Below, piece after piece: positions 19,779 through 50,498 of a stretch of DNA of 64,000 nt. The notes under the pieces are model-generated. The model worked only from the letters and a program-made list of their open reading frames with translations. It had not been told where the DNA came from and ran no database searches. The position numbers were made by a program, and so were the translations under genes. How positions within the stretch are numbered: the first letter of the stretch is position 1; every line of letters begins with the position of its first letter. The DNA is from Candidatus Scalindua japonica (lineage in GTDB: Bacteria; Planctomycetota; Brocadiia; Brocadiales; Scalinduaceae), in the NCBI RefSeq assembly GCF_002443295.1, contig NZ_BAOS01000028.1, positions 186,001 to 250,000 on the forward strand, read 5' to 3'.

Positions 19779-22700
19779 CTAACATATCGTACTGTGCTCA
19801 CACCATTGACATCTTTGATCTCTCAGTTTTTTAAACACTCCATCCTTATGTGTTATGAAAAAGTTATCCAGGGTTGAATCCAGTTCTCTGCATGCTTTTT
19901 CCGTCGTATCTACTACTACGTATTTATCCGGTATAAGGAAGTAGAGTATGGTTTCATCCACCTTCTTTCCATAAATTGTTTGCAACGCTCGGGCGTAAAG
20001 CTGCATCTGGAGTTGATAAAGTTTTACTTTATCCGGTATTTCATCAATGGTTATATCATTTGCCTTGTAATCAATAATTTTTAATACGCCTTTTTTATCA
20101 AAAAAGAAAAGATCTATCTGCCCCCTTATATGATTGTTCCGGTGGTTAAAAATAAATGATTTTTCACGTTTACACTGTTCACTTGAGAGAACTTCTTTCC
20201 CTATATTGCTATTGTAGAATGATTTTACCCAATTTGCGATAAGGTCTACGCTTTTCTGATTTTTATACGGAGCATAGACACATAGTTCTTTTTTGATATA
20301 TTCATTGAGATTGTCTTCCGGGAACTCATATTTCTTAAAGATGCTGTGTACGATATTTCCCAGCTCCTGTCCAGGTATTTCATCATCATTCAGTCTGTTT
20401 TCATCTTCTTCAACGGAATGTGGGCGATCCATGTTTTTTTCTCTTAATCCCTGCAGGCCAAGAATGGAATTGAGATAGTATAGCTGCGGACAGAAGTGAA
20501 ACTTGAGCAGCTCTGTAACTGAGTATACATAGTGACGGTTATCAATCTCTGCATTATAGTTAATTCTTGATAAAACCCTTTTTCCTGTTTCTACAATCTT
20601 TTCTGAAGGTGATGGAGTATCGATTTTATTGCATGCTGCTATCTCCCTTCTATGTTGAGTCATAAGTTTTAGCCTTTTTCCTGTTTTCAGTTTGCTCTCC
20701 TCTTTTTGGGCAGACGGTCTGTTTTCTCCCTTTATGCACGTATGTTTCACCTCGATCAGGCGTGATGAATCCAGTCCGAGTTTTATGGTTTTCCGCTCAT
20801 CTTTAGATTCATCGTTCAGGTCAAGGGAGGCAGAGATGTAGTTATACCAGTTCCCTTTGTCACTGTCTCCTCTGGATCTGCTTTTGCTTATTCCCCCTGA
20901 CAGTATCAAGTGTTCCTGTGCCCTTGTCATAGCAACAAAGAGCAGCCGTTTTGACTCTTGTAACTCTTTTTGTGTTATTTCATCGTTAATCTGTTCATAA
21001 CTAAGAGGTATTTCCGCTTCATTGGTTGATGGGTTAAGTATCTTAAAGCTGATTCCATGGTCCTTTGAGTATACTAAATAGTCTGAGGACCTTGTATTGT
21101 CTCTGTCAGTATCGGCAACAATAACAACCGGGAATTCCAATCCTTTCGCTGAGTGTGTTGTAATCATTTTAACAACATTATCCTCCTCAGATTCTATAGG
21201 TGCTTCGGATTCTCTGATCTCCCTGAATTTATAACTATTTACAATCTCAATAAAATCTTTTAATGCCAAAGGTTCAAACTCTTCCTGGTTTTTACATAAC
21301 TCTACCAGCTTTCTAAGGTTTGCATATCTCTTTTTTCCATTTGAGAAAAGAAGCATTTTTGTTTGAAATTCGGTTTTCCTGAGGATGAAGGAGATAAGTT
21401 TCCATAATGAGGTTCGGGGTTTAATATTGTGTACTTCATTCAGTAATTGAACAAATTGGATAATCCTGTCCCTCGAATCTTTTTCGATCTCTTTTATAGA
21501 ATCAACGACATTCAGGGATTGGTAAAGCAGGTGTTTCTGATTAGAACTATGAGCGTGGTCTGCTAACTTGAAAAGGACATCATCATCTATCCCGACAAAC
21601 GGAGACTTCAGGACTGCCGCCAGGTTTATCTCGTCAAGGGGTGATTCAATAACCTTTAAGAGGTTAATCAAGTCCGTAATCTCTGTTGTATTATAAAACC
21701 CCCTTCCACTCACAACATAATAGGGTATATCAAGATGCGAAAAGCTGCGTTCGTAGAGCTTAATGTCTTTTGTACTGCGGAATAGGATAGCAATGTCCCT
21801 GTAGGAGATATCTCTTTCATGCTCTCTTTTGTTTGTTATCTTGATCTCGCCTGAGTCAACAATCTCCTTTATCCGTTTTGCAATCTCTATGGATTCCCAT
21901 TTTCGAGCCCCAATCTTATCTTTCCCTTCGGCAACAATTATCTCGATTGATGGGAGAGACTTCTCGGAGAATTCTGCTCCCGGTTTTAGTTGAGTGTTCT
22001 CAACCACCCGTTTTTCCGCTCCTTCCTGCCCGGCCATGCAGTTCTGACTGTCGTAAGGAGGGAGTGAAAGTCCTGGAGTTTTTTTATACGGAGAAGCAGT
22101 ACTATCCTTGCTGGTCAAGTTTTTCGGCCATAATTCTTTAAATATATGGTTTATGCAATCCAGGATCTGTGGTCTGCTTCGGAAGTTTTTATTCAGGCTT
22201 ATTAAAGATTCGGAATCTATTTCATTCTGAATGTCCTGAAATATCTCAACATCCGCGTTCCTGAAGCCATAAATGGATTGTCTTGCGTCTCCTACTATAA
22301 ACAGATTATCTTTGCTTCTTATGAGATCAATTATCTTTTTTTGTAATCTGCTTATATCCTGAAATTCATCTACTAATATGTGCTTGAATTTTCGTTTTAT
22401 TTCGTTTGCTATGTGCTCTCTGTTTTCCAGTAACTCTATTGTTATTACTTCAAGGTCGGTAAAATCGATGAGGCTCTCTGCCTTTTTCTGCTCTGAGTAA
22501 GCAATGCTGAAATTTAAGAGAAAGTTCCTCAGCATTATCTTGTTGTATATTGAATAATCTTCAACGATTGATGCTATTAGTGTTTTCAATTCGTCGCGTA
22601 AGTTGCTCAAGATTTTTTTTACGTCTTTTGAAACCTGCAGGTTTATGGAAGAGTGAATGGTTTTCACTTTGTTCAACAATGCAAGGGCAATGTCGCCTCT

Positions 22701-23573
22701 TATGGATTGTTCGTTAGTATCAATTGAACTTCCAGTGGATTCTGCTTCTTTTGTTTCCCCTCTTTGTGCCCGTCTGAACGGCATGGCCGGGCGGGAAGGA
22801 GGGGAGAAGGGGTGGTTTTCTTCTTTGCCGCAGTATAGCTTATCTATTTCACTTTGTATGTGTGAGGTCTTCCATTGTTCTAAAACGTATTCTACTTTTT
22901 CGCTTGTTTTAGGTGTAAGTTTGCTCTCTGAGTAGATATGCCTGATCTCTTTTATCAACTCTTTGCTCTTGTTATAAGAACCTGAAATATCTGATGACAA
23001 ATCATTAAAGTTTACCGTTTCTTCAATCGGCACACACGCGTTCCTGATTTTCTCATAGAGCTGCATCAGGTTTTCTTTGAAAGACTTAAGTCCGCTCGTT
23101 TTTGAATCTGTTTGCTTCCAGAAGATTTTATTCAGAAATGCATCAAGAGTTTTTTCATCTGTTTGCGCCTTAAGGGTGTTTTCCAGCGCACGCTCTTTCA
23201 ACCTGTCGGCTTCGAGTTCATCCATAACACGAAATTGGGGATCCAACGCTGCTTCTATCGCATTTTCTCTGAGTAATCGAGCACAGAAACTATGGATGGT
23301 AGAGAGATATGCAAACTCTATCTCCTGTCGCTCCTTTTCCATTCCTTTCCGTTCGAACAGACCGGCAGCCCTTATCTTCATCTCATTTGCAGCCTTTTCC
23401 GTGAAAGTGAGAGTGAGGATTTCATTTATTGATGCCTGGCGGGTAGTTACAATGTTAGCAAATCGCTCAATGAGAACACGCGTTTTTCCTGAGCCAGGAC
23501 CGGCGACAACACATAAATCCCTGTCCGTTGTTGTAACACCTTTTATCTGAGAATATGTTAGTTTGTCTGCCAT
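19779..23573 (-). CDS. AddA-like UvrD-family helicase with C-terminal PD-(D/E)XK nuclease
   Basis: This 1264-residue repair protein has a UvrD/RecB-type helicase: Walker A AGPGSGKT (24-31), LTFTEKAANEM (motif Ia), DEFQDIS (motif II), GDARQSIYGFR (motif III), TTHSAKGLEFP and LLFVAMTRAQEHL (motifs V-VI). The C-terminal nuclease shows GQIDLFFFD...IIDYKAN near 1150-1170. A cysteine in FCPQLYYL and the terminal C-x2-C-x5-C (CQWCEHSTIC) suggest an iron-sulfur staple as in AddB/Cas4. It likely processes double-strand breaks. No addB is adjacent. Two palindromic repeats are translated within it, near residues 256-272 and 504-518, as probable surface insertions. Confidence 0.88.
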   Translation of the reverse strand: MADKLTYSQIKGVTTTDRDLCVVAGPGSGKTRVLIERFANIVTTRQASINEILTLTFTEKAANEMKIRAAGLFERKGMEKERQEIEFAYLSTIHSFCARLLRENAIEAALDPQFRVMDELEADRLKERALENTLKAQTDEKTLDAFLNKIFWKQTDSKTSGLKSFKENLMQLYEKIRNACVPIEETVNFNDLSSDISGSYNKSKELIKEIRHIYSESKLTPKTSEKVEYVLEQWKTSHIQSEIDKLYCGKEENHPFSPPSRPAMPFRRAQRGETKEAESTGSSIDTNEQSIRGDIALALLNKVKTIHSSINLQVSKDVKKILSNLRDELKTLIASIVEDYSIYNKIMLRNFLLNFSIAYSEQKKAESLIDFTDLEVITIELLENREHIANEIKRKFKHILVDEFQDISRLQKKIIDLIRSKDNLFIVGDARQSIYGFRNADVEIFQDIQNEIDSESLISLNKNFRSRPQILDCINHIFKELWPKNLTSKDSTASPYKKTPGLSLPPYDSQNCMAGQEGAEKRVVENTQLKPGAEFSEKSLPSIEIIVAEGKDKIGARKWESIEIAKRIKEIVDSGEIKITNKREHERDISYRDIAILFRSTKDIKLYERSFSHLDIPYYVVSGRGFYNTTEITDLINLLKVIESPLDEINLAAVLKSPFVGIDDDVLFKLADHAHSSNQKHLLYQSLNVVDSIKEIEKDSRDRIIQFVQLLNEVHNIKPRTSLWKLISFILRKTEFQTKMLLFSNGKKRYANLRKLVELCKNQEEFEPLALKDFIEIVNSYKFREIRESEAPIESEEDNVVKMITTHSAKGLEFPVVIVADTDRDNTRSSDYLVYSKDHGISFKILNPSTNEAEIPLSYEQINDEITQKELQESKRLLFVAMTRAQEHLILSGGISKSRSRGDSDKGNWYNYISASLDLNDESKDERKTIKLGLDSSRLIEVKHTCIKGENRPSAQKEESKLKTGKRLKLMTQHRREIAACNKIDTPSPSEKIVETGKRVLSRINYNAEIDNRHYVYSVTELLKFHFCPQLYYLNSILGLQGLREKNMDRPHSVEEDENRLNDDEIPGQELGNIVHSIFKKYEFPEDNLNEYIKKELCVYAPYKNQKSVDLIANWVKSFYNSNIGKEVLSSEQCKREKSFIFNHRNNHIRGQIDLFFFDKKGVLKIIDYKANDITIDEIPDKVKLYQLQMQLYARALQTIYGKKVDETILYFLIPDKYVVVDTTEKACRELDSTLDNFFITHKDGVFKKLRDQRCQWCEHSTIC
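22019..22062. repeat. In-frame palindromic repeat inside the AddA-like gene, copy 1
   Basis: A 44-base element (CTCCTTCCTGCCCGGCC...) that aligns with the reverse complement of copy 2 at 36 of 44 positions. It is translated on the minus strand as part of LPPYDSQNCMAGQEGAEK without breaking the frame. It resembles protein-coding palindromic elements such as those of Rickettsia. Confidence 0.7.
22757..22805. repeat. In-frame palindromic repeat inside the AddA-like gene, copy 2
   Basis: The same element as at 22019-22062 but in the opposite orientation. It is translated on the minus strand as part of PFSPPSRPAMPFRRAQRGE, a Pro/Arg-rich insertion between helicase motifs. The reading frame is preserved. 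Confidence 0.7.
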
Positions 23574-34524: not shown

Positions 34525-34922
34525 AACAGACTGAAGAGGAACATACCATTTTTACCTCAATATTTCTAGTTGTAAATTTGATGTGAGCTGTCGTAGAGAA
34601 AAAACAGGTCCACCGTAGGGAAGCCAGGAGGTCTGAGAAGAAAAAATGTAGTCACTAAGGCAGGAACACAAATTTCCTGCCCGAAAGGCAGGTCAGGCGG
34701 GCACGAATTAACACTAAAAGAGAAAAGGGAAAATTAACCACGAAAAAACGGATCAATACTGTAGTCAATGAAAAAATAACATTCTCGCAAAGCTTGGCAG
34801 TGAACAGTTCTTTCGCCTTCCTGTCCCATGGGTGCGCGGATCTCCCTTTTTGTCTATTTGCCTTTGAACTTTGGAATTAAAAAGAAATTCCCTTTTCTTA
34901 ATAACTTCGGTATTTATTTATA
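34525..34922. other. Intergenic region with repeats
   Basis: About 400 bases without a gene. It holds the GC-rich palindrome with its CACGAATT-type flank (34671-34717) and general AT-rich sequence. Confidence 0.45.
34671..34717. repeat. GC-rich palindrome within a CACGAATT-type repeat
   Basis: CCTGCCCGAAAGGCAGGTC, then AGGCGGGCACGAATTAACAC. Nearly identical to copies at 43711-43772, 44395-44487 and 45250-45342 and, inverted, at 36084-36140. Confidence 0.7.
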
Positions 34923-35729: not shown

Positions 35730-36377
35730 TTTAATTCCTTAATCCTTCACACGAAGGATGCAAAAAACTTAATTCGCTAAGGAATGCAGGAACTAAGGGA
35801 AAAAATACATGATAAAACATTGGGTTTTAAACCCTTCCTATAACTCTTGCTTTCCTGAGATTTATCATTTGTTGCGTTGTCATTTTGTTATTCAATCCAT
35901 CTGGTTTTTAGCAGTGTATATCTTTGCTCTATTAAAGCAGGAATTGAATCGTTTGTCAGTAGTCAATCTTTAATTTAATTTCCATTTGTGCTTGAACAGA
36001 AATGGTTAAAGTGAAATAAAGTTATGGTGGCCAAGGAATTAATATTGAGCTTTGAGATCACGATTTAACAGTTATTGCAGCTTTTCTTCGTGTCAATTCG
36101 TGCCCGCCTGACCTGTCTTTCGGGCAGGAAATTCGTGTCTTCCTGCCTTAGTGGCTCAATTTTTTTGTCTTCCGCGTTTTTTCCTATAATATTGCTTTTT
36201 CTTTTCTTTGCGCTCATAGTGCCTTAGCGTGAACTTTATTTGTCTTTTTTGTGGCCATTATTGTTTTTTGTGTTAATTCGTGTCTAAAAAAATCTCTCTC
36301 TTTACCGATAATTAAATTAACAGGATCATAGAGAAATTCAGAAGAGATTAAAGAAAACGGGAAGCACTGAGGGTATA
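35730..36377. other. Long intergenic region with CACGAATT-type repeats
   Basis: About 650 bases. From about 36080 to 36290 it contains several copies of the motif TTCGTGTCAATTCGTG / GTGTTAATTCGTG and an inserted GC-rich palindrome (36102-36127). No gene seen. Confidence 0.55.
36084..36140. repeat. CACGAATT-type repeat carrying a nested GC-rich palindrome (inverted copy)
   Basis: Read on the minus strand: CACGAATT, then the palindrome CCTGCCCGAAAGACAGGTC/AGGCGGG, then CACGAATTGACACGAA. The 8-base CACGAATT on both sides suggests the palindrome was inserted into a tandem CACGAATT repeat. Confidence 0.65.
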
Positions 36378-43642: not shown

Positions 43643-43723
43643 CTACTTCCTTTTATACATTGCTCTTTTATGCCCTACTCTTAAAACAATAATATCCTTG
43701 TCTTCTATATTAAAGATTAGACG
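43643..43723 (-). pseudogene. C-terminal remnant of a RelE/ParE-type toxin
   Basis: The minus strand encodes RLIFNIEDKDIIVLRVGHKR, then AMYKRK and a stop at 43643. This is the terminal beta-sheet of RelE/ParE toxins ('RLIY.i.d..i.vlrvgHRR.vY'). The upstream half is replaced by a GC-rich repeat copy starting within the RLIF codons, so the gene is broken. No antitoxin gene remains. Confidence 0.55.
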
Positions 43724-43772
43724 AGAATTGCTTGCCCGAAAGACAGGTCAGGCGGGCACGAATTGACACTAA
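43711..43772. repeat. Long direct repeat, copy A (partial, 62 bases)
   Basis: TAAAGATTAGACGAGAATTGCTTGCCCG... through CACGAATTGACACTAA. Same orientation and nearly the same sequence as copies B (44395-44487) and C (45250-45342). Confidence 0.8.
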
Positions 43773-43859
43773 AAGAGAGAAGTAAAATACTAGATGCTGG
43801 ACAGCGGATAGTATCTTTCTTCTCCATCTAATCTTTAGTCTAATATACTCATACCGTTA

Positions 43860-44195: not shown

Positions 44196-44735
44196 ATTTA
44201 ACTCTCCTTTCTATTCAACAAGAATTAAATCATCTACTTTGCCGTAAAAAGAATTTCTATCAAATTTCCCGTGTTTATTCTCAAATTCCTTCAATTTATC
44301 ATGTGTTGTCTGTCTCAACAGTAAGTTTTGTCATTTCTGTCAACTTCTTGTTGTTGAGTGTCTAGGCCTTAGATACACAATTGATTTTGTTGTTATTATA
44401 AAAGAGGGGGGATGTTTTGCAATATAAAAGATTAGACGTGAATTGCTTGCACGAAAGACAGGTCAGGCGGGCACGGATTGACATTAAGTGATAATAAAAG
44501 GGAAGAGGCAAGGTTCACCGTTCCGCCAAACAACTCGTCGGACAGGAAGACACAAAGAACGCAGAGGAAGACTGAAAACAATTGGCAAGAGGCTAGAACA
44601 AAGACTAAATATTGACTATCCGCCTCTACCTGTTCGAGCAGTTTGAAGATCGATGCCAGAAAATGTGTGTCTGTCAGATTAAATCTGTATATTAGGTATT
44701 TCCGTATGCCATAATGTGATCAATAATTAGTATAT
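44196..44735. other. Intergenic region with repeat copy B
   Basis: About 540 bases; contains copy B of the long direct repeat (44395-44487) and an imperfect palindrome TTCCGCC...GGACAGGAA near 44520-44550. No gene seen. Confidence 0.5.
44395..44487. repeat. Long direct repeat, copy B (93 bases)
   Basis: From ATTATAAAAGAGGGGGG to GACATTAA. Identical to copy C at 85 of 93 positions by my alignment. It lies downstream (in minus-strand terms) of hicB and upstream of the cytochrome gene. Confidence 0.85.
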
Positions 44736-45249: not shown

Positions 45250-45342
45250 ATTATAAAAGAGCGGGGTTGTTTTGCAATATAAAAGATTAGACACTAATTG
45301 CTTGCCCGAAAGACAGGTCAGGCGGGCACGAATTGACACTAA
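45250..45342. repeat. Long direct repeat, copy C (93 bases)
   Basis: From ATTATAAAAGAGCGGGG to GACACTAA. With copy B it brackets the hicAB pair exactly, both in the same orientation. Confidence 0.85.
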
Positions 45343-45449
45343 CAGAGAAAAGCAAAAGAATAAAGACAAAATTTAACTACGGAAAAGCACGGATTAGCAC
45401 TGAGGTCAAAAGTAAAGGAGAAAACAAGGCACGCGCGGGTTTGGTACTG

Positions 45450-48474: not shown

Positions 48475-48957
48475 ATGGAAAAGATATGCATTGTGAAAAG
48501 AAGAAGTAGTAGTAGTATGTCTAACGGACTGAGGGATGGCAGGGCTTTCATGCCGGTAAATAATCGTGAGGATTATGGTAGTGCCGATTATGAGTTTAAA
48601 AATCTGGCAGATGGCGATGGCGAAGGCGATAAGCTCTCACTGGACCTTACACCTGAGCAATCTGCGTTAATACAGTCAAACGAATATATCGAGTCCGTAA
48701 CAGACGGTGAGACAAAAAATATTGTTTTAAACATGAAAAAATTAGGAGGTCATACCTTTCTTAACTTTCATTTTGGTGAAGTCGACAACATGAAGCTTCT
48801 AAAGACGAAAGAGGCATGCAGCATGCTGCATGTGAGCGCCAGTTTTTTATTGAAGCTCGTAAGAGAGAAAAAAATTAAAAGTTATAAACTCGGCAGGCTC
48901 AGGCGTTTTTCATTTCATGACATCCTTAATTATCTAACCGAAAATATTGAAAAGTAA
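48475..48957 (+). CDS. Excisionase/MerR-like helix-turn-helix protein
   Basis: This 160-residue protein has a C-terminal DNA-binding domain (about 104-160): LLKTKEACSMLHVSASFLLKLVREKKIKSYKLGRLRRF, the 'HTH_17' winged-helix type found in excisionases and small regulators. The N-terminal 100 residues are acidic and unassigned. It is followed after 26 bases by the ExeA-like ATPase and may regulate that operon. Confidence 0.75.
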   Translation: MEKICIVKRRSSSSMSNGLRDGRAFMPVNNREDYGSADYEFKNLADGDGEGDKLSLDLTPEQSALIQSNEYIESVTDGETKNIVLNMKKLGGHTFLNFHFGEVDNMKLLKTKEACSMLHVSASFLLKLVREKKIKSYKLGRLRRFSFHDILNYLTENIEK

Positions 48958-48983
48958 AAACATTTTTTTATGAGGGAAATCTT

Positions 48984-50498
48984 ATGTATTATGAATATTG
49001 GAATTTAAAAAAATCACCTTTTGATAATGTTCCTGATCCGACAATGTATGCGGCATGCCATGCTTCTATGGAGAATGCGATAGCAGAGACCCTGTTTGCC
49101 ATAGAAGAGGGAGAAGATTGCCTGTCTGTGATAGTTGGTGATGTGGGATTAGGTAAGACAATGTCCATACGTATTATTATCGATTCACTTGAGAGTGAAA
49201 AGTACAAAATTGCGTTAATAACCAACCCCAGCACTACTTTTGTTCAGATATTGAGGGAGATCATAGGCCAGATAACAGGAAAGCCGTGTGAAGAGAGAAA
49301 AAAAGACGACTTACTGGAGATATTTAACAGGCTTCTGTTTGATACAAGTGATGAGGGCAAAAAGATTCTCATTTTTATTGATGAAGCGAATGTTATGTCG
49401 CCAAAGAAACTTGAGGATTTAAGGCTTTTAACTAATATGCAGCAAGATAGTAGAAATTTGTTTACTATGATACTCGTAGGCCAGATGGAGCTGGCAAAGC
49501 GGCTGGAACATCCGAAGAAAGCAAACTTTTTCCAAAGAATTGGTACTTATTGCCAGATAGAGAATATGCCTGACGAGGAGCAGTTAAGAAACTATGTCGA
49601 GACCCGTCTGCAGCGCACAGGTGGATCAGGGAAAATTTTTACAGATGACTCTTTTCCTGAAATCTGGGAATGTTCGGAACATGGTGTTCCTCGTCTCATC
49701 AATAAAATATGTAAGCTGTCATTGAAAGCGGGAGAAACCAATGAATTGGCTGAGATAAACAGTGAAATAATCCGTCAGATCGGGGACCGCTTCCGTAAAA
49801 TAACTCGTCCCGCCTCGCCAAAAAGAAAGCCAAGGAAACGGTTAGAGAATGAAAAAGCTCCACGGCCTGTTAAAGATCCCCGGGATAATTTAGAAACTAA
49901 ACCGGAAGATCAGGGTGAAAAATTAGTTGAGGCAGTTGCCGAAGAAGAGACTCCTCTGGAACCCGTATTGTGCTTACAGGATGATGGAGATGCCATAGCG
50001 CTGTCTTCCGAAACAGACTCAGAGAGTAAAGATGAGCCGGTCTGTACAGGAGGAATAACAGAAGATGGGTCAGTCTGTGCAGAAGGAATAACAGAAGATG
50101 AGCCAGTCTGTGCAGAAGGAATAACAAAAGAGGAGTTTGCTATCCATAATGGTGATGTACAAACCGAGGATGTTGTTTGTGAGAGTACAGAGCAAACCAG
50201 AACATTTCCCGTAGAAGTTGGTTTTGGGGATGAAAAGGCACTTTTTGAAGATGTTGCTGCTGATGAAGACGAGCGGGATGAGGTAGATATTGGAGGCAAC
50301 AGGTTTCAGATAGATCTGTCCTCCAGCCTTATTGAGCAGGCAAGGGGTTCCAACCAGGACCAGCGTAACAAACTCGCCGGCACGATAGCGGCCCAGGCGT
50401 TAACAAACAACAGGGAGTTAACCAAGGCTGCTTCCGCAGATCCAGTTCCCATTTGGAATGAAATAAAAAAGTTTGTGCTCTGCAAGATTGGCAGATAA
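48984..50498 (+). CDS. ExeA/GspA-like AAA ATPase with an acidic repeat-bearing C-terminus
   Basis: A 504-residue protein. The start MYYEYWNLKKSPFDNVPDP is typical of ExeA-family ATPases. Walker A is GDVGLGKT (52-59) and Walker B ILIFIDEA near 128; the arginine-rich lid is around residue 210. ExeA proteins help assemble secretins; others act with transposases or pili. After residue 275 the sequence becomes basic, then acidic and low in complexity, with three 11-residue repeats (EPVC..GITED) at about 351-383. There is no transmembrane helix, unlike ExeA itself. Confidence 0.82.
   Translation: MYYEYWNLKKSPFDNVPDPTMYAACHASMENAIAETLFAIEEGEDCLSVIVGDVGLGKTMSIRIIIDSLESEKYKIALITNPSTTFVQILREIIGQITGKPCEERKKDDLLEIFNRLLFDTSDEGKKILIFIDEANVMSPKKLEDLRLLTNMQQDSRNLFTMILVGQMELAKRLEHPKKANFFQRIGTYCQIENMPDEEQLRNYVETRLQRTGGSGKIFTDDSFPEIWECSEHGVPRLINKICKLSLKAGETNELAEINSEIIRQIGDRFRKITRPASPKRKPRKRLENEKAPRPVKDPRDNLETKPEDQGEKLVEAVAEEETPLEPVLCLQDDGDAIALSSETDSESKDEPVCTGGITEDGSVCAEGITEDEPVCAEGITKEEFAIHNGDVQTEDVVCESTEQTRTFPVEVGFGDEKALFEDVAADEDERDEVDIGGNRFQIDLSSSLIEQARGSNQDQRNKLAGTIAAQALTNNRELTKAASADPVPIWNEIKKFVLCKIGR
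50035..50133 (+). repeat. 33-base tandem repeat, three units, inside the ExeA-like gene
   Basis: Each unit encodes an 11-residue block: EPVCTGGITED, GSVCAEGITED, EPVCAEGITKE. The units are highly similar at the nucleotide level, which indicates recent expansion. Each places one cysteine in an otherwise acidic tail. Confidence 0.85.

Follow-up and report, generated by a model that had tools for sequence, protein, structure and literature searches.

Palindromic repeats within the reading frames of addA and other genes of anammox bacteria

Palindromic elements known from protein-coding genes

The reduced intracellular bacteria Rickettsia and Wolbachia provide the best-known examples of palindromes carried in frame by protein-coding genes. 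The Rickettsia palindromic elements (RPEs; Ogata et al. 2000, 2002) are in-frame palindromes of protein genes (PMC3767692, PMC2229807, PMC10969869), and translation and activity have been demonstrated for a guanylate kinase that bears one (PMC2229807). Wolbachia has palindromic elements (WPE; Ogata et al. 2005; PMC4224334) that lie in frame in addA, addB and priA. Intragenic REPs (GTAG and CGTC families) occur in several other bacteria, many of them in repair genes, and two Xanthomonas species have one at nearly the same place in recB (PMC3733652). The Correia/NEMIS elements of Neisseria are MITEs with two versions, of which the open-frame version alone is found in genes (PMC2229807).

The elements described here, two of which lie in an addA-like gene within a stretch of 64,000 nucleotides (the window), were originally predicted to resemble RPEs, and they do so in behaviour. 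Like RPEs, which are palindromes of ~105-150 bp and whose hosts include one recB-family exonuclease and one helicase, they are dispersed and also lie in frame within conserved genes that are left unbroken, with differing versions at one site in orthologues. Unlike RPEs, they are found in another phylum and in free-living hosts, and their 111-bp unit has ends of its own and the core CCCCTCCTT/AAGGAGGGG. The likeness to WPE, across different host phyla, lies in the in-frame palindromes of addA and priA. Intragenic REPs are also short palindromes in genes, many of them repair genes, but the anammox unit is longer, has long terminal inverted repeats and showed no association with a RAYT at six Y1 loci. 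The two versions of Correia/NEMIS may be compared to subfamilies B and A of the anammox element (B being the one in genes), but sequence and host are different and the anammox in-gene copies are all in one frame. The open-licence literature yielded no earlier account of elements like these in anammox bacteria, which weakly suggests novelty; they form a genuine family of protein-coding palindromes, undescribed to the extent that the literature was covered, of a known kind in a new lineage and with a new sequence. Its occurrence across free-living anammox bacteria with genomes of 2-5 Mb implies that the habit does not depend on intracellular life.

Two inverted repeats in an addA-like gene

The host gene (19779-23573, minus strand) is intact and encodes an AddA-like helicase-nuclease of 1264 amino acids with UvrD-helicase, UvrD_C and PD-(D/E)XK nuclease domains. 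The top NCBIfam match of the protein is AddA, below the equivalog cut-off, and its best match among solved structures is 3u44, AddA, helicase/nuclease subunit A. The dN/dS of the gene against its relatives is 0.16-0.18, similar with or without inserts, and the gene is under purifying selection. The only named genome record that came up with a close AddA (71% identity) is that of Candidatus Scalindua, an anammox planctomycete, with which the genome, originally called planctomycete-like, groups; on the basis of this match, the order of the searched genomes is taken as Brocadiales.

Positions 22019-22062 and the reverse complement of 22757-22805 had been reported to match at 36 of 44 positions, and a recount gave the same result. 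Among 100 versions of this gene with shuffled codons, no 44-nt inverted match exceeded 27 positions, and a 22-mer taken from the pair has two matches in the window where zero are expected, so a chance origin of the pair is ruled out. A repeat finder stretches the pair to 22012-22062 and 22758-22808 (51 nt, 80% complementary), and the core of site 2 matches the core of site 1 with an E value of 6e-8. Both elements are open in the single frame of the gene, as had been claimed. A scan of the window against Rfam at the gathering score gave no RNA family match.

The element that is upstream within the gene (site 1) lies between TIHSFC and motif II (VDEFQD) and encodes ENHPFSPPSRPAMPFRRAQRGETK, which is Pro/Arg-rich. 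Its inserted segment, set by orthologue protein and DNA alignments, spans approximately 22698-22817 on the minus strand (residues ~253-292), and its palindromic core (22758-22808, minus strand) is a long form with a nested inner hairpin that encodes SPPSRPAMPFRRAQRGE and matches the element model R1 weakly (E 0.0135). Site 2 is located after the NFRSR motif and encodes the Gln/Gly peptide LPPYDSQNCMAGQEGAEKRVV; orthologue alignments place its inserted segment at approximately 22002-22094 on the minus strand (residues ~494-524), and its core (22012-22062, minus strand) is a long form with the inner hairpin reversed that encodes LPPYDSQNCMAGQEGAEK. The translations and motif positions agree with the original prediction of Pro/Arg- and Gln/Gly-rich additions among helicase motifs, and the positions assigned to the elements hold, but their extents were slightly small compared to the insert limits that orthologues set at both sites. 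The long form is read PPSRPAKPFGRAQGG one way (G013, G014) and PPYARPNSLAGREGG (PPxARPNxLAGREGG) the other way (site 2 of G008); the window holds one worn copy of each orientation, too worn for both ends to be clear.

Among close orthologues, from the same family of bacteria, the site 1 insert is missing from six (G004, G005, G007, G008, G011, G012), and inserts of other versions are present at this site in G001, G010, G013, G014, G015 and G016, either a short palindrome read SPPSQGGE or a compound SPPSRPAKPFGRAQGG...SPPSEGGE. At site 2, nothing is inserted in G007 and G012, there is no palindrome in G005, G011 and G016, the short form is found in G004, and G008 has the long form with its inner hairpin oriented as in the window. 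Insertion in frame, as originally proposed, is borne out by these insert-free orthologues at both sites and by the different versions in others; orthologues with the same peptide and without the repeat DNA were sought and none was seen, the peptide tracking the DNA. From these alignments, the two places in AddA appear to be filled with related palindromes. The KTTENSTA-like flanking residues common to G001, G010 and G015 suggest one shared insertion that some lines subsequently lost, and because some addA copies have flanking residues common between genera, part of the addA pattern may be due to old insertion and loss rather than fresh insertion; a tree fits more than one number of events. Additional copies of the element are located directly upstream of addA in G004 (C156:6534, 7010; L192) and G014 (C15:31137, 30658), so the neighbourhood of addA is rich in copies.

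The host assembly consists of 47 contigs, repeats can mislead assemblers, and one copy in G013 is almost at a contig end, all of which would fit an assembly artefact or a pseudogene; this explanation is barely credible, because independent assemblies have in-frame inserts at these sites too, the motifs are intact, and selection is purifying. Both copies in the gene have an unusual central part, GGCATGGCCGGGC, in common, as if a single hairpin within the gene had expanded locally or been copied from a template, with no mobile element involved. Such an origin is highly improbable: each site has a separate orthologous history, and the same core and ends are dispersed over many genomes and genes, a dispersed family that largely refutes local copying.

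Structure, spread and mobility of the element

Intergenic copies in related genomes reveal the full element, which spans ~111 bp (37 codons): terminal inverted repeats of ~24 bp enclose a GC-rich hairpin core, CCCCTCCTT-NNN-AAGGAGGGG. The model copy (G001:C82) is 111 bp long with perfect 24-bp ends, GTAAGTTCTCAATAAGTTGAGGAA...TTCCTCAACTTATTGAGAACTTAC, flanking ACCACCCCATTTCCCCTCCTTCGCAAGGAGGGGATTAAGGGGAGGT; the other subfamily has the ends GTAATTACTCAATATCAAGTGGAA...TTCCACTTGATATTGAGCAATTAC, and the ends of the element are written GTAAKTNCTCAATA. Some copies contain 27 extra nucleotides in the loop that constitute a nested hairpin (GCCCGGCCAAGCCGTTCGGACGGGC), and a few copies, in the PyrK-like gene of G014 and at L161, have a third level of nesting. 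In the PyrK-like gene (L175:970-1983), the hairpin-in-hairpin-in-hairpin is followed by a second core, for ~60 extra residues in frame. The element is short, has terminal inverted repeats, encodes no transposase and has no coding capacity of its own, which makes it a MITE-like element.

By model and pattern matches with their surrounding regions, a census biased towards strong copies, 14 out of 16 further genomes from the order contain at least one element match, and the core is present in most of the genomes searched. The genome of the window has only a few clear copies, and several genomes of the same family have tens of copies each, so that the 111-bp unit is a palindromic repeat in the range of ~100-150 bp with many copies per genome. 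The search for further copies that the original prediction had called for, extended to other genomes, places the window pair in an order-wide family with many in-gene copies.

Transposition is the probable route by which the element spread. No autonomous partner was found among element ends with at most one mismatch in seven genomes, and no target-site duplication was defined, empty and filled sites being too diverged to mark the ends; because neither a target-site duplication nor a mobilising transposase was identified, the term mobile rests on the dispersed copies and on presence versus absence. The element begins with GTAA and ends with TTAC, which resembles the outward tags of REP pairs, and each genome contains 8 to 31 matches to Y1 transposases, several of them ~330 amino acids long; these features would suit REPs that a REP-associated tyrosine transposase (RAYT) mobilises. 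A RAYT is nevertheless an unlikely mover of the element, since none of the six Y1 loci checked is directly flanked by element ends (one Y1 gene is ~1.4 kb from an element copy) and the inverted repeats at three of the tested Y1 genes (GGGTCAGRCCTT type or ATAAAGGGGACAGGCTAC) are unrelated to those of the element. In G001, the Y1 genes of L205, L206 and L207 are located between matched inverted repeats of 19-29 nt, of the GGGTCAGRCCTT type or ATAAAGGGGACAGGCTAC, and resemble the TIR-flanked kind in PMC3733652.

Host genes and reading frame of the in-gene copies

Open frames around the copies, with the proteins checked against Pfam, amount to ~19 in-frame sites in ~16 genes; this count excludes open frames of L354, L193 and L157, which involve other frames or another repeat and have no recognised domains. 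Four of the sites are in addA (two in the Scalindua family and two in another family) and two are in a Kdo/WaaP-type two-domain kinase; the other hosts are murD, the PyrK-like gene, an AcrB-type transporter, a CDP-alcohol phosphatidyltransferase, a CHAT protein, a U32 peptidase, a spermine-synthase-like protein, priA, selA, a PDZ protein, a TPR protein, one unassigned gene and, less certainly, a TonB receptor with the element near its N terminus. The sample is biased towards addA, where the finding began, although the addA and priA copies of G022 came from a genome-wide model search. Insert-free orthologues were found for nine sites in five genes (four in addA, two in the kinase, and one each in murD, the PyrK-like gene and priA) and show insertion in frame in conserved genes. 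The cleanest pairs of empty and filled sites are those of priA, where G022 and G053 have ~70 residues immediately ahead of the HGITG motif and 12 other genomes have none, and of kinase site 1, with a 34-residue insert in the genome of the window only. In murD, alignment to 3lk7 locates the insert in the C-terminal domain, with a helix on one side and the strand VLIAGG on the other, probably in a surface loop. Neither G013 nor G014 has a murD match besides the insert-bearing gene, and therefore its MurD is presumably functional.

All in-gene copies in recognised protein families read ..NHPxSPPSQGGDxGEV.. (more fully, ..NHPxSPPSQGGDxGEVIKSNxVPLDIEQ..), and none are in the other two frames. The element is nearly its own reverse complement, and its core when flipped still starts with CCTCCTT in the same phase; because of this near-palindromy an inverted copy is open in the same frame, and because the inverted copy stays open, two opposite copies can share one gene. 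In the central 51 bp of the first sample of intergenic copies, the used frame was open in 25 of 108 cases and the others in 66 and 67. Split by subfamily in a larger sample, A had the used frame open in 3 of 78 cases and was in genes in 0 of 39, and B was in genes in 10 of 23. The copies are non-independent and were sampled around model matches, so that no p-value is attached to these counts. In the larger sample, the low openness of the used frame was strong in subfamily A, and subfamily B and unclassified intergenic copies were more even. That open frames alone explain the choice of frame is unsupported in the first sample, given that the frame in use is the one least often open among its pooled intergenic copies. 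The simplest reading is survival of those copies in which the open frame encodes a flexible peptide rich in Pro, Gly, Ser, Gln and Glu.

Both addA repeats are very probably degraded copies of the order-wide MITE-like palindrome, tolerated by the gene and translated as passengers. A non-autonomous element would insert at many places, and in-gene copies would survive if read in the frame for a flexible, hydrophilic peptide at a tolerant position of the protein, probably a surface loop; the gene would remain intact with the insert translated as a passenger. Intact frames and selection suggest that the inserts are translated in working proteins, and the inserts are probably nearly neutral.

The hosts also bear on a different explanation, that the inserts are kept for a function, as a hairpin in the message RNA that attenuates addA or as a loop that tunes the enzyme, with genes of recombination and replication restart favoured. 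In its favour, four addA sites across two families and the priA of two genomes have been struck, Wolbachia addA, addB, priA and other repair genes have also been struck (PMC4224334, PMC3733652), and palindromic cores persist in several addA orthologues. Against it, the numerous hosts are unrelated (murD, selA, transporters, kinases), close relatives manage without the insert, and copies have decayed in G015, G016 and the window; retention for function is quite improbable, and the tolerated passenger is the best-supported reading. The recurrence of addA and priA, in Wolbachia as well, is the most interesting point. There is some chance, though a small one, that in-frame palindromes recur in recombination and replication-restart genes of unrelated bacteria through insertion bias or through tuning of enzymes that themselves act on hairpin-prone DNA. 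Target bias is a testable question, since addA and priA are hosts common to both groups, and the empty and filled pairs, single frame and two subfamilies allow the entry of mobile DNA into essential proteins to be tested. In practice, the inserts can make unrelated anammox proteins match misleadingly, and assemblies can break at them.

Several other repeats were noticed. A related but distinct palindrome with the arms CCCCCCTTT / AAAGGGGGG is present at L157:3801-3840 and L181 (G013, G014), and one of its copies falls within a 487-amino-acid open frame that has no Pfam match. A second repeat family, TGCCCGAAAGACAGGTCAGGCGGGCACGAATTGACACTAA, has five copies in the window (34666-34732, 36087-36140, 43721-43787, 44436-44502 and 45291-45357), in both orientations and outside open frames of at least 120 amino acids. 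Three tandem units of 33 nt (11 codons) are located at 50029-50127 of the window, within an open frame of 515 amino acids (48951-50495).
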